Positions 7,397 through 21,350 of a stretch of DNA of 64,000 bases are shown here, one piece after another. Below the pieces are notes generated by a model that saw nothing but the letters and a program-made list of their open reading frames with translations, did no database searches and was not told where the DNA came from. Source of the DNA: Lytechinus variegatus (taxonomy: Eukaryota > Echinodermata > Echinoidea > Temnopleuroida > Toxopneustidae); assembly GCF_018143015.1 (NCBI RefSeq), contig NC_054758.1:13682001-13746000 (forward strand), written 5' to 3'. The first letter of the stretch is position 1; each line of letters opens with the position of its first letter. The translations under genes and the position numbers were made by a program.

Positions 7397-8051
7397 GCAA
7401 TCCATAAACATATAAACATGATTTTCTTTCGTATTAGTCAGTTAACTATTTTGGTCCAATCAAGTACATAATTTGTAAGAAAACCCGGGTAGTTTGGGTT
7501 AGTATATACATAATTAGAGAAAACAATTCTATTTAATATTTAAACGAGGGCAAGAATAATTTTATTCTTATCGTTGTTTTCTATTAAAACCAAATAAACT
7601 GACTATTCTAGATTTCGATTTTCCGCTGTCTATTGAAGATCATTGTAAAGCATAATCCCTCTCTAGCATGTTATTATTGTTTTACCATTCTTTTTTCTTC
7701 TCTTTCTTTCACTTTTATTGCTGGTCATTTTATCTTCTTGGTCGCTTGACATATATTAGAGATTTGCATCGGCAGAAAGGCATTTTGGTTCATGAAATAC
7801 CAAAAAAAATATTAGATGCAGGTTACCATATGGTGTTCCGACAACGATAATGTCGAAAATAAAGTGGCATACCTTTTTTATCTTATGAGTTCATAAGTAA
7901 GAATAAAATCTTTGCACTTTGATGTAAACTGTTTTTGCTCTAAGCTAATCAATGTAAGTTATCTGTAGGCACTAGTACTAATTGACAAATGTAATCAATG
8001 TATCTTGGTTTCCTTTGTTTCGTTTTGTTCTTCAGTCATCTTGGGTTAAGT

Positions 8052-8651
8052 TTAAAGGGGAATCCAACCCAAATAAAAACTTGTTTTTATAAGGAAAAGA
8101 AAAATCAGACAAGTTGATAGGTGAAAGTTTGAACAATATTGGACAAACAACAAGAAAGTTATGAATTTTTTTAATTTGTAAATATTGGTAATCACTATAC
8201 CCATGGAGACTTCAATTGGCCGCAGATGGGATGTCATAGTGATGTAAGGCAAGGACTACTCTTCCATGTACTCTAATACATATTATGGCTAAAATGTCAT
8301 TTTTCCCAAAAGTTTTATTTCAAATTATATTTTTCTTTCAGAAGGACATACTACAATATACTACCTGGGTTATATTTAGATTACTGCCCCAGGGGAATGG
8401 GTACTTAGGACAAAACCACAAATCCCTGATAACAAAGTACATGGCCTATGGAAAGTTGTCCTTGCCCCTTGTCATAATTTACTTATACAGTTGCCAATTT
8501 GAAATCTACATAGTATTAGTGATCTCAATATTAAAGCAGCTATAACTTTCTCATTGCTTGTCCGATTTCTTTCAAACTTTCACCATTCTGTTTAATTTAT
8601 TTTTCTCCTTCCCAACATAATATTTATGGCCAAGGCTGGATTCCCCTTTAA
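8052..8651. mobile_element. TTAA-bounded foldback MITE, family A
   Basis: The left end TTAAAGGGGAATCCAACCC matches the inverse of the right end GGCTGGATTCCCCTTTAA. The arms continue inward (AGAAAAATCAGACAAG against CTTGTCCGATTTCTTT; GTGAAAGTTTGAAC against CTTTCAAACTTTCACC). There is no coding capacity. The TTAA at each end suggests piggyBac-type target use. Confidence 0.8.
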
Positions 8652-9022
8652 TTATCGACGTTATTGCAGACTTATGAGAGTACATGTACGTGGAAATTAC
8701 ATACAATAAAATCAGAAAGCATTCATCATCCACTAAAAAGATTAACACAAATGACTTATTAAGAAAAGGTAAAATGAGATTCATTTTCACCCTTGGGAAA
8801 AGTGTTAATGATCGAGACGTTAAGATTAATGAATGAATGGACAATAGCATGGTCTTAATTACGTTGTTATATGGTGTTTATTCTTTATTCTTCCTCTCCG
8901 GAGGGAATAAGACCAATTCATGATTTTAATGACGGGCGTACACAGATATTAGTTAATTAAAGATTCTGATTTGAGCGGGGTTGTTGGGACGTATCGGTAA
9001 AGATTATATTAATGCAGAAAAG

Positions 9023-9105
9023 TATATAAAGGATGGAAAGTATCATCATCGGTATATTATCTCAGATTGTTCAAGAGAGATTGCATCTATTCTACTCTAT
9101 CAGTG
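9023..9105 (+). promoter_or_regulatory. TATA promoter and 5'UTR exon of the peptide gene
   Basis: TATATAAA at 9023-9030 is followed about 35 bases later by an initiator-like TCAGATT (near 9064). A short leader follows, ending in CAGTG|GTGAGTA, a consensus donor (intron from 9106). The matching acceptor is TTCATTTTCAG at 9801-9811, 38 bases upstream of the peptide ATG. Inference: transcription starts near 9055-9064 and exon 1 is non-coding. A TATA box suits an inducible or tissue-restricted effector gene. Confidence 0.6.
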
Positions 9106-9849
9106 GTGAGTATATACTAGAGGTATATCTTAGTGTTGTAATGAGTTGCACAGGCCTAGTAGCAATACCAGCGGCTTGTGTCATTGGTTGACATATTTGA
9201 GAGATTTTATGATTCATGTATATGATTCATGTACAGCATGAATTCGTTTTCTTTGGGAAATATTATTCTGTGTGAGCGAATGAATCGAATAAAAAATGTA
9301 AGTTCTTGTTAGAATCGTGTCATTTTATTTTCAAGATAGCATAGAGATATTTTGACAGACCCGAATATCAATAGGCTTTGCGTCTACTAGAAACAACATT
9401 TTACATTAACTTGACCTCGAGCTTTCGATATTCTTTTGTTCAAATAGAGGTATGATTTTTGTTTGTGTTTAAAACACAATATGCGTTGATTACAAGGAAA
9501 TTCCCATGTATATGTGTATACTATTTCTCTTATTATAATGCATATCTTATCACATTGTTATATTTTCATGTATTTTATATAATTTGCAAAGTTTCAACAA
9601 TTAATGTTTGTTATACTGATTCGGGATATGCCTAGTATAGTTTACACTCTGCGAAAACTGGATCGTGAAGAAAAGTGTAGGCATCGGCCTCCAGCGAGAA
9701 AATAGAGCGCTTAACCGTATTCCGCGCTATGTTCACATTTTTATTTCGCTAAACAAAATGTTTATTTACCCATTGTGCAACACTTAACATAAAAATATCA
9801 TTCATTTTCAGATTTCATCCCATCATCATTTTGACCCTTACAACTAAAC

Positions 9850-11784
9850 ATGGCTTCCAAGATAGTGTTGTTGATCTTCACCGTTGTCATGGTAACTGCC
9901 TTGGTAGCTGCAGAAACTTTCGATGATCTCACCGATGATGATCTTAATGAGATGGAAGCTCTGATTTTCAAAAGAGCTGATTCAAATGAAGCTGACATCG
10001 GAATGGAGTTTGATGACGACGAAATGGAGAAACGAGGCCGTGGAAAGGGACGGGGAAAATTTTTCCGTGAGTATAGGCTCCTAATATTCATGATATTCTG
10101 ATATAAATCACCCTTATTTGATACATGGTTTGTTATTGATAATGATAACCAAGCCCTTTTTATAACCTCATCAAGGTGACCAAGACTGAAGTTAACTTCT
10201 TATGTTGTATATCAAGGTGAAAACTTGCCAGGAAAATGTTCTTCTATACATATAGTCATTAACTAATTTTGCCCTCTCGTATACGCTCTAAAACACAAAA
10301 AAGGTGAAAAGGGTGCAAATGGTCGGGGTAACAACTTTTTTTTAGCTTTGAATGCTGTCAGTACTCTGCCCTTATAAGGAGTAATCAACCCAGGAGGGTG
10401 CTTCGTAAAGCTATTCGTAAGGGAAGAGCGACTTTTAACAACGACTGGTGAATCTTTCTTACGCGCTAAATATTCACCAATGAACATTTAATGGTGAACA
10501 TCATATATCAAAAGAAAATGATCACTTTTTAAAGTCACTCTTAACTTACGAACAGCTTCATGAAACCGCGCTGGCCTTACTTTGGGAAGTCATTTTCCTC
10601 TTACTTTGGAAAGCAAACTATTATGGCATAAAGCCAAGCAAGAAAACATATTTGTTTTAAAATGCAAAATATTCTTCGTTAGGTTACAAAATGTGTATAT
10701 TATTTCGAAATACCATATTTCTTCAATGAAGTATGGCATATCTAATTTTTCGAAATAGAAAACTGAGCCAACACATCGCTTCTGTACTACCAGAAAAAGT
10801 TATTTTTCAATGGTCGTTTGGCTAGCATGCTTATGATATAAAAACAAGATAATTTTGTAAGTGATACCTGGTTCCCACTGCCACGATCTGTGCCATGATT
10901 CAAACGTCGTACTTAATCGTGGAGTACTCGTATTGATCGTATCAGATCAGTCGTGGCAATCGTATTGAACGTGGAAATTTTTTGAATGGTTCCAAAAATT
11001 TCTCGATCACTTGCGAAAGACCAACGTTGGCTTTCGTGCAGGATCGCACGACAGTGCACAGCAAAAACTGTGGTGTTAACCGGTGTACATAGAGGACCAC
11101 ACCAGTTGTTTTACACCGGTGTTAAATTGGTGGTGTTAGTTTTACACCCATAGGTGTTATTACAACACCTTTGGTTGTTATATTTACACTCTTTGGTGTT
11201 ATGTTAAATCTCTTGGGTGTAGTTTTAACACCACAGGGTGTGGTCCTTTAACACCAACTGGTGTCAGTTTTAACACCACAGTTTTTAGTATTAGAGCAAT
11301 AGGTCCAAACTATTTCATTTATGATTCTTGGTATATTCTTGGTTTCCAATGCGGGCTGGTTGGTTGATTATATCTAGTGGCGTAATGAGCCAACAATTTT
11401 GAGGGCGGGGGGGGGGGGCAAGATATGGCGCATCGATCGGGCAAAATTTATCGAGAGTTTTGTTCCTCTCATTTTACTCTTTCCCATAAGATTGCTTCTC
11501 TTCTTGGGTTTTGGTTTCCTTTAATAGAACATACACAAGAGAACACTCTCAATAGTAACGATTTCAGGCAAGAAGGAAAATAAATGCAATATCACTTTCT
11601 AATTACAGATACATATGTCATAAATGTGTGTGTATTTCTACCCATATAAATTTTAATTCTGACCATTGTATTTTTTTTCTTAAATACAGGCTGCACACAT
11701 CCATTAAATGGATTTTCATGTGTCTGTGATAGGCGATATCGCAAAAGTAATCCCAAATACTACCGGGTATGCGGACATCAGTGA
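9850..11784 (+). CDS. Secreted cationic four-cysteine peptide precursor (antimicrobial-like)
   Basis: Exons 9850-10066 and 11690-11784 (donor C|GTGAGT, acceptor AATACAG|GC) give 103 residues. Seen: start in good context (AACATGG); signal peptide residues 1-21 ending LVAA; acidic segment 22-62 rich in Asp/Glu, with Lys-Arg pairs at 41-42 and 61-62; then a 41-residue C-terminal peptide starting GRGKGRGKFFRC. It carries cysteines at 74, 83, 85 and 100 (C-x8-C-x-C-x14-C), 11 Lys/Arg and one Asp. Family knowledge: an acidic propiece plus a dibasic site before a cationic Cys-rich peptide is the layout of many sea-urchin antimicrobial precursors. Inference: furin-type cleavage at 61-62 frees a disulfide-stabilised defence peptide. 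The C-x8-C-x-C part also recalls the second half of an EGF domain. I do not recognise a named family, so a signalling peptide remains possible. Confidence 0.8.
10390..10563. mobile_element. Small foldback MITE in the peptide-gene intron
   Basis: GGGTGCTTCGTAAAGCTATTCGTAAG at the left pairs with CTTACGAACAGCTTCATGAAACC at the right. It resembles the element at 35996-36178 (GGGTGTTTCATAAAGCTGTT). Non-coding. Confidence 0.6.
11061..11290. mobile_element. Foldback element built of GGTGTTA/TAACACC motifs
   Basis: The left end CAAAAACTGTGGTGTTAA mirrors the right end TTAACACCACAGTTTTTAG. The interior repeats TTTACACC, GGTGTTAT and related words in both orientations, so many alternative hairpins are possible. 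It lies in the peptide-gene intron about 400 bases before the second coding exon. Confidence 0.7.
11459..11526. mobile_element. Truncated family-C MITE end
   Basis: Matches the right end of the element at 34225-34801, through TTCTCTTCTTGGGTTTTGG and TTTCCTTTAA. Only one arm remains. Confidence 0.65.
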
Positions 11785-11856
11785 GAAGCCGAATATCCGA
11801 CACTGGAATGGACCGGCGTGAAAATCGGATACGAGAATCCATGGACAGACAGCGAA

Positions 11857-12313
11857 AATAAATCAACTCCATTTATATTGAAGGTGCAACCCAAAAGTGG
11901 ATGGATTTTTACACTATTCTGCATGCCGTGATACCGTGACTATTGGTCGTAAATATTAAGTTGATATTGGAGGAATCGAGGATCGAGTTTTTATAAGCCT
12001 TTTGGAAGAGTAATTTGTGGAAAATGCAGGCTACATAGATGATCCTCTAGTCATATTGGAATATTGATGTATTCACAAACCTATGATCACAAATTGTTAA
12101 TTTTCAAGGGAGTTTAGATAATAGTTCCGAATGTGTTTTTATTTGTTAATAGTATACATAATGTTCGATCAGTGAATCACATTCAGTCATGAAGCCGACT
12201 CTCGGTCGGTATAGAGTTAGCAGTGAGATACCTGTATATAGGCAAGCTCTTTTGGCTTTCTTTTTAGATAGTAGTGCGCTCAGTGCGTGGTTAACACGCA
12301 CGAACAAAATAAA
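11857..12313 (+). terminator. Candidate poly(A) signals of the peptide gene
   Basis: AATAAA occurs at 11857-11862, 73 bases after the stop, and again at 12308-12313 within CAAAATAAAAATAGC. Either could end the mRNA. The sequence between shows no other gene. Confidence 0.35.
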
Positions 12314-13008
12314 AATAGCGATCCAATAATCAATTTGCGGCTTGTGTATGAAAGTTTCATTTTTTTTTCATTTATTGGTTTCTGCAACACTTTTTCATGA
12401 ATATATTAACAAAGAAAATACAATAATAATATACATATAACTGACAAGCAAAACATACGAAAAAATTGCATTTTCTATTAAAACATCGATTATTAGAAGG
12501 TTGCAGGGGTTGCCACTATAAGCTAAGCTTGACTGCGTGGCAACTGGGTTGCCACGCAGTTGCATGAAAGTCATTCTATTACGGTTGCATGAAAGTTTCT
12601 ATTACGGATTTACATGTAGCTCTCGTAATAATTATTTGAATAATGATTAATTGTTAAATATCCAAGACAATTGACATTCTTCCGAGAGCCAATTGCTTGT
12701 TTTATATCAATAAAATCTGGAAACTCATTACGCACAAAATATATCCCTCTATTGTTTTGATTTGTTTGTTAACTTGCTTTATTATTTGACTTGACAATGA
12801 ATTGTTATATGAATGAAGATTTACAATAGGAAAGGTAAAATTATTGACCTTCTTCCTTCTTATATTCTCTTTTTTATCACATTTTTTTAAAATACGATTT
12901 GAGATGCTTAACCATTTGATGCGGTTCTACATTTAAACCAGTACGAATGTTTGTGATTTTTTTTGAAAAATACTTTAGCATAATTTTTAAAGTCTTCTTT
13001 CAATGTAG

Positions 13009-19876: not shown

Positions 19877-21350
19877 CAATTACGGGATCGGAGTTCGGTT
19901 CGGAAGTTTTGCTCCTAAAATCGGAATCGGTTCGGATATCGGATCGGAAGATATTCCAAAACAAAAAATACATTAAAATTTGTATGTGGCCGGCGCGTGG
20001 ACAAATGCGGCACGCTACACTGATGGCAGAATTTGTTTTGATCTCCGACAAAAGCGGAGGAAGAAGATGATGAGTTGTTTTGATCTCCGACATAATCGGA
20101 GGAAGGAAAATAAGATAATGATGTTCCAGCGCGCGACACTACCGCCGATCAACGATTGGCCTCTTCTCTACAACATCGTGGTGATGGCGGCGTCCGTCGT
20201 GAACTTTTAGAGGTCGCATTACTTACCGAAAAGGACGCACTACTATCCAAAGTTGTTTACCATGATATTCACCTTCTCTACAACATCGTAGTGATGGCGG
20301 AGGTAATCGTAAACTCTTAAAGGTCGCATGACCTCCCGAAAAAGACGCATTATTATCCAGAGTTGCTTACCATGATATTCACTTTCTCTACAACATCGTA
20401 GTGATGGCGGAGGTAATCGTAAACTCTTAAAGGTCGCATGACCTCCCGAAAAGACGCATTATTATCCAGAGTTGTTTACCATGATATTCACCTTCTCTAC
20501 AACATCGTAGTGATGGCGGAGGTAATCGTAATCTCATAAAGGTCGCATGACCTCCCGAAAAAGACGCATTATTATCCAGAGTTGTTTACCATGATATTCA
20601 CCTTCTCTACAACATCGTAGTGATGGCGGAGGTAATCGTAAACTCTTAGAGGTCGCATGACCTCCCGAAAAAGACGCATTATTATCCAAAGTTGTTTACC
20701 ATATTTACTTTCTCTACAACATCGTAGTGATGGCGGAGGTAATCGTAAACTCTTAAAGGTCGCATGACCTCCCGAAAAAGACGCACTATTATCCAAAGTT
20801 GTTAAAGATGATATTCACCTTCTCTACAACATCGTAGTGATGGCGGAGGTAATCGTAAACTCTTAGAGGACGTATAGTCAGATAGTCGTAAATATTACCG
20901 CGCATGTCATCGTGTTCAACTAAATCTTATTTGCCTCCGCTTAAGATCAAAACATATCGTCTTTTCGTTGTTTTTCTTCCTCCATTTTTGTCGGAGATCA
21001 AAACAAATTATCATCATCATCGTTTTGTTCTTCCCCGATTATGTCGGAGATCAAAGCAAATCATAATCTTCTTCTCCACCTGCCTTTCCGCTAATATCGG
21101 AGATAAAAACAAATCATAATTTTCTTCCCCTTTATCTTCTTTTCCTTCCACCGCTTTTGTCTGAGATCAAAACAAATCACCAGCGCATTTTGACGGCAAA
21201 CATGTCGCCACGTGTTTTTTTTGTCTTGTTATGTTTTGGTTTTTCCGATCCGATTTTTTCCCCACTGGTCCAAAATCGGAGTTCGGAAAAATGTAGAAAA
21301 AAGGGGAAAATCGGATCGGATCGGGAATTGGAATAAAAATCGGTTACAGC
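19877..21350. mobile_element. Composite foldback element around a 110-bp minisatellite
   Basis: The outer arms carry ATCGGAGTTCGG and GGATCGGAA-type words in inverted order (19877-19950 against 21240-21340). Inside these, TTTTGATCTCCGACA units at 20035-20100 are mirrored by TGTCGGAGATCAAAACAAAT units at 20985-21175. The centre is the tandem array at 20167-20880. No protein is encoded. Confidence 0.7.
20167..20880. repeat. 110-bp minisatellite, about seven units
   Basis: The word CTCTACAACATCGT recurs at 20167, 20276, 20386, 20495, 20605, 20712 and 20822, a period of 107-110 bases. Each unit also holds GTGATGGCGGAGGTAATCG and GGTCGCATGACCTCCCGAAA. The central units are nearly identical, so expansion was recent. 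Confidence 0.95.

Follow-up and report, generated by a model that had tools for sequence, protein, structure and literature searches.

A duplicated sea urchin gene for a predicted cationic four-cysteine peptide with an acidic propiece

Described echinoderm precursors of similar layout

Among described echinoderm peptides, the KARTESH (KASH1 and KASH2) and CHUPA (1-3) precursors, which come from a starfish, Asterias rubens, appear to be the closest kind to the gene reported here, a comparison made on published descriptions of their layout. In the accessible text of the paper describing them (PMC11891777), these precursors carry a signal peptide, an acidic stretch, a dibasic site and four cysteines, with mature lengths of 28 to 30 residues for KARTESH and 35 to 48 residues for CHUPA. 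The same text places the peptides in coelomic fluid, reports that they are up after injury, and lists homologues in other echinoderms and in no other phylum; for KASH2, its authors could retrieve none beyond A. rubens. KASH2 folds as a disulphide-directed beta-hairpin with C1-C3 and C2-C4 bonds (deposited as 8V2M/8V2U), and CHUPA3 gave no clean folding. In the reported assays KASH2 did not stimulate human fibroblasts, and no antimicrobial test of KASH2 is reported in the accessible part of the paper.

A gene of similar layout is present as copy A in the window (the whole stretch of 64,000 nucleotides, C19:13682001-13746000, from the sea urchin Lytechinus variegatus that was analysed), and two paralogues, B and C, were found outside it. 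As far as the accessible descriptions allow comparison, copy A has the KARTESH/CHUPA arrangement of a signal peptide (judged by hydrophobicity), an acidic stretch, a dibasic site and four cysteines. The predicted mature lengths, 41 residues in A and B and 37 in C, fall within the published CHUPA range.

Characterised echinoderm antimicrobial peptides are few, numbering 17 in five families and six species in the accessible text of a 2025 review (PMC11767717). Centrocins and strongylocins have an anionic propiece that is said, in the parts of the sources available, to neutralise the charge of the mature peptide (PMC10608444, PMC4805251). Strongylocins are built like copy A in having a leader, a propiece and a cationic, cysteine-rich mature peptide (PMC4805251, PMC11767717), but they are described with six cysteines and a brominated tryptophan, whereas the mature part of copy A has four cysteines and no tryptophan, and the propiece of EeStrongylocin 2 is 16 residues long against about 41 in copy A. 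Membership of the strongylocins was rejected on the number of cysteines and the lack of tryptophan. Centrocins share with the copy A type a leader (20 residues), a propiece (30 residues) and a cationic product (PMC4805251), but a centrocin as described is a heterodimer of disulphide-joined heavy and light chains; copy A would yield a single chain with four cysteines after KR62, and centrocin membership was rejected on that ground. PpCrAMP of Patiria pectinifera is presented in the accessible text of three reviews (PMC11767717, PMC12466427, PMC9656538) as a cysteine-rich antimicrobial peptide with a predicted beta hairpin, and by one review as the sole known sea star antimicrobial peptide. The likeness to the copy A product, that of a cysteine-rich peptide from an echinoderm, is one of description. 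PpCrAMP has four cysteines in 38 residues.

Gene structure and predicted precursor of copy A

Read from the window sequence, copy A (9023-11784) is a split gene on the plus strand for a 103-residue precursor, and we regard it as a gene with near certainty. A TATA box, a 5'UTR exon and two coding exons had been proposed in a first-pass annotation, and all are present in the sequence. The TATA box (TATATAA, 9023-9029) has the same seven bases at the aligned position in copies A, B and C. The putative start of 5'UTR exon 1 (9053-9105) was placed about 30 bases downstream of it. Intron 1 (706 bases, 9106-9811) opens with the donor GTGAGT at 9106 and closes with the acceptor TTTTCAG before 9812, after which the 5'UTR part of exon 2 (9812-9849) begins with ATTT. 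Coding exon 2 (9850-10066) starts at the ATG at 9850, encodes the leader, the acidic propiece, KR 61-62 and the GRGKGRGKFF arm, and ends after the first base of a codon. The phase 1 intron 2 that follows (1623 bases, 10067-11689) has the donor GTGAGT directly after 10066 and the acceptor AATACAG before 11690. Coding exon 3 (11690-11784), whose first codon is split with exon 2, encodes RCTHPLNGFSCVCDRRYRKSNPKYYRVCGHQ, the four-cysteine part, and ends in the stop TGA. An AATAAA at 11857-11862 on the plus strand, kept in all three copies, is the likely polyadenylation signal.

The leader is hydrophobic, the signal peptide being judged from this property, and by the -3/-1 rule we presume that it is cleaved after A21. 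The propiece, computed from residue 21, has a net charge of -13 and a pI of 4.05. The part after KR62 was recomputed as 41 residues with a net charge of +10 (K+R minus D+E), a pI of 10.4 and the pattern C-x8-C-x-C-x14-C; length, charge and pattern agree with the earlier figures. Its reduced average mass was computed as about 4836.5, and would be about 4 lower once two disulphides had formed. The proposal that an acidic propiece precedes a cationic four-cysteine part is thus well supported as sequence, with cleavage between the two predicted. A second KR in the propiece (residues 41-42, 9970-9975), also retained in A, B and C, could free an additional acidic peptide. An RR and an RK pair lie between the third and fourth cysteines of the mature part and may, on sequence alone, allow further cutting. 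The precursor terminates in CGHQ, and the GRGK arm may resemble histone tails.

Searches of family and structure collections gave matches that we took as chance or none at all. For the precursor, Pfam returned only FixH (E 0.25, taken as chance), with no antimicrobial, EGF or neuropeptide family at E<=10; the best NCBIfam match was a permease (E 0.17, taken as chance), with no antimicrobial family; and five PDB sequences matched, the best at E 0.33, again taken as chance. The mature part had no phmmer match among PDB sequences at E<=10. AlphaFold2, given the 30-residue cysteine part alone as three near-identical sequences, produced a low-confidence model (mean pLDDT 57) with strands at 8-12 and 25-29 and a helix at 14-18, for which Foldseek found 0 matches in the PDB at E<=10. 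A pattern scan picked out 46 stretches in viral contigs, none of them a relative, and 68 stretches in genome contigs, of which 1 passed, with an 11-residue Ruminococcaceae match that we took as chance. Five peptide strings occurred in 0 papers of an open literature library, which lacks most subscription journals and sequence databases. The earlier view that no family matches agrees with the Pfam, NCBIfam and PDB results, but a kind with the same layout is described, in the accessible text, for starfish KARTESH/CHUPA (PMC11891777).

A layout rule was used to assess how readily such an arrangement arises by chance. The rule called for a leader, an acidic propiece, a dibasic site, at most one GT-AG intron and a basic part in which the cysteines are four or more and even in number. 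On both strands of the window it selected 1 locus, and in 100 order-3 Markov windows of equal length it selected 0, a figure that flatters copy A because the rule was written after the gene had been seen. A looser version, run over two blocks that surround the copies and total 294 kb (170 kb plus 124 kb, the latter including the window), returned A, B and C only, with hits on B and C that used a later ATG or an alternative acceptor counted as the same loci. Apart from its own exons, the precursor matched the window by tblastn only at E 2.2 or worse.

Paralogues and their conservation

The DNA of 11600-11850 matches three places among the 869,567,369 bases in 33 contigs that were searched, namely itself and two others; all three first-look candidates were scored, and the match counts are lower bounds. 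The match in paralogue B lies at C19:23191217-23191455 (92%) and that in paralogue C at C19:23203339-23203546 on the minus strand (96%). Both are intact genes on the same contig as copy A and 9.5 Mb from it, so that the genome holds at least two further copies. A and B have in common a duplicated unit of about 4.9 kb, broken by insertions (7508-12361 on the plus strand, C19:23187631-23191977 on the B side), and a further matching stretch at 12586-12814.

The reading frame, splice sites, TATA box, first exon and AATAAA are all retained in B and C. Copy B has 312 coding bases and a mature part of GKGKGRGKFFRCTHPLYGFSCVCDRRYRKSNPNYYRVCGHQ; copy C has 300 and one GRGK unit fewer, giving arms of two units in A and B and one in C. 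Mature net charge is +10 in A, +9 in B and +7 in C (B and C counted by hand). None of the three proteins has lost a cysteine or either KR site, and every acidic residue except 57 and 58 is likewise retained.

Comparison of A with C separates the parts of the locus. Identity is 73/89 upstream (8931-9022), 71/80 (89%) over the TATA box and exon 1 (9023-9104), 51/65 over the 5'UTR and acceptor stretch at 9781-9849, 191/205 plus a 12-base gap in the coding part of exon 2, 94/95 in that of exon 3 and 122/135 (90%) in the 3'UTR (11785-11920), with the coding exons 93-99% identical. Intron 1 (9106-9780) has 395/638 identical bases with many gaps and intron 2 without its 3' end 374/872; a local alignment of intron 2 recovers only its last 47 bases. 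Conservation of the exons and transcript parts alongside diverged introns is the pattern predicted by selection on the transcript. The A/B comparison is uninformative on this point, because the start of intron 2 (841/891) is nearly as alike as the coding sequence (300/312); identity between these two copies is 76/82 over the TATA box and exon 1, 622/656 in intron 1 and 93/95 in the coding part of exon 3.

NG86 estimates, each drawn from a small number of differences, were dN 0.036 and dS 0.056 for A/B (12 differences), dN 0.026 and dS 0.123 for A/C (13 differences), and dN 0.026 and dS 0.086 for B/C (11 differences). The A/B ratio of 0.64, drawn from 12 differences, is not clearly below 1. Copy B is a mosaic, near C in its 5'UTR and acceptor (62/64) and near A in intron 1, and all three copies share 103 consecutive bases of exon 2 without a single difference, silent sites included. 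Both observations suggest that gene conversion has probably acted between the copies, A itself being 9.5 Mb distant from the other two, and the similarity of the exons could partly reflect it. Rapid evolution is typical of many defence peptides. Among A, B and C, conservation of the propiece roughly equals that of the mature part, and there is hardly any variation in the cysteine part, so no sign of such evolution was seen.

Possible function and neighbouring sequences

Since published echinoderm precursors have the same layout, we judge a secreted host-defence or injury peptide to be the most likely function and favour it with modest confidence; the host-defence reading draws on charge, on layout and on comparison with these precursors. 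If it is right, the intact, duplicated gene would be transcribed into a message for a secreted prepropeptide, with the leader directing it into the secretory route, and a prohormone-convertase or furin-type protease would cut after KR62. The acidic propiece (-13) would balance the mature charge (+10) until that cleavage and then be removed. The 41-residue cationic peptide so released, predicted to be held by two disulphides and to carry a flexible arm in which the number of GRGK units varies, might act in coelomic fluid or at epithelia on anionic microbial surfaces or other polyanions. Several observations count against this reading: no antimicrobial family matched in Pfam or NCBIfam, the copies give no sign of rapid evolution, the A/B ratio is not clearly below 1, gene conversion could explain part of the exon similarity, and KASH2 failed to stimulate human fibroblasts. 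A bolder proposal, which we put forward tentatively and consider rather doubtful, is that the copies form an undescribed echinoid host-defence family with its own C-x8-C-x-C-x14-C framework, in which the number of GRGK units tunes the charge (+7, +9 or +10). A natural paralogue that lacks one unit, combined with a small synthesisable peptide, offers a direct test of the arm's role, and copy A also tests whether the four-cysteine injury peptides of starfish extend to L. variegatus.

Alternatively, the gene could encode a neuropeptide or peptide hormone precursor, in which cuts at KR would free the four-cysteine peptide, and perhaps an acidic peptide, for signalling through a receptor. This would be consistent with the retention of two dibasic sites (41-42 and 61-62) in three copies and with the strong conservation of propiece and mature part alike. 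We nevertheless think it unlikely, as the C terminus (CGHQ) has no amidation signal (although not all neuropeptides are amidated), a charge of +10 with a GRGK arm of variable number seems unusual for a receptor ligand, and Pfam gave no neuropeptide match. Less probable again would be a secreted, polyanion-binding structural peptide of matrix, biomineral or egg coat, with the arm binding glycans or nucleic acid and no killing of microbes. The highly basic, glycine-rich arm of variable unit number would suit such a role, but structural proteins of this kind are usually longer and repetitive, and the four-cysteine layout is closer to the published injury and defence precursors.

The last four cysteines of an EGF module follow the order C-x(n)-C-x-C-x(n)-C, with a glycine usually third after C-x-C. 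The pattern of copy A fits C3 to C6 of such a module and the cysteine exon follows a phase 1 intron, as might be expected if the cysteine part corresponded to the latter half of the module, left over from an EGF-like or other growth factor. The first-pass annotation had named this half-fold as the nearest shape, a comparison that found no support: the first two cysteines are absent, arginine stands at the glycine position, neither Pfam nor the PDB sequences gave an EGF match, and Foldseek, working from a poor model, was without a match. Four cysteines and no tryptophan set the peptide apart from EGF modules and strongylocins alike; the EGF module was rejected on the cysteine count (four, not six) and the lack of a Pfam or PDB sequence match, and we hold a growth-factor remnant to be very improbable. 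A chance open frame in a repeat-rich region is almost certainly the wrong explanation and was rejected, given two more intact copies, whose exons are conserved while their introns have diverged, and a layout found in 0/100 simulated windows under a rule made after the fact.

Several other features of the region were recorded. An element with inverted ends (AGGGGAATCCA...TGGATTCCCCT) adjoining TTTAA lies at 8052-8652, and stretches similar to it occur at other places in the window and in the surroundings of the copies. The matching site in B is empty (GTTTAATTATC), which suggests that the element was probably inserted after the duplication. Intron 2 contains a palindromic GGTGTTA-rich stretch at about 11060-11290 that is missing at the same place in B. 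A phosphonoacetaldehyde hydrolase-like exon lies on the plus strand at 1055-1303 (phmmer against the PDB, E 1.5e-12; Pfam Hydrolase E 0.029, below the Pfam cut-off), and 448-645 on the same strand may, by eye, be another exon, where Pfam found nothing. At 20163-20869, a 110-base unit is repeated in tandem in 6.5 copies with 93% matches.
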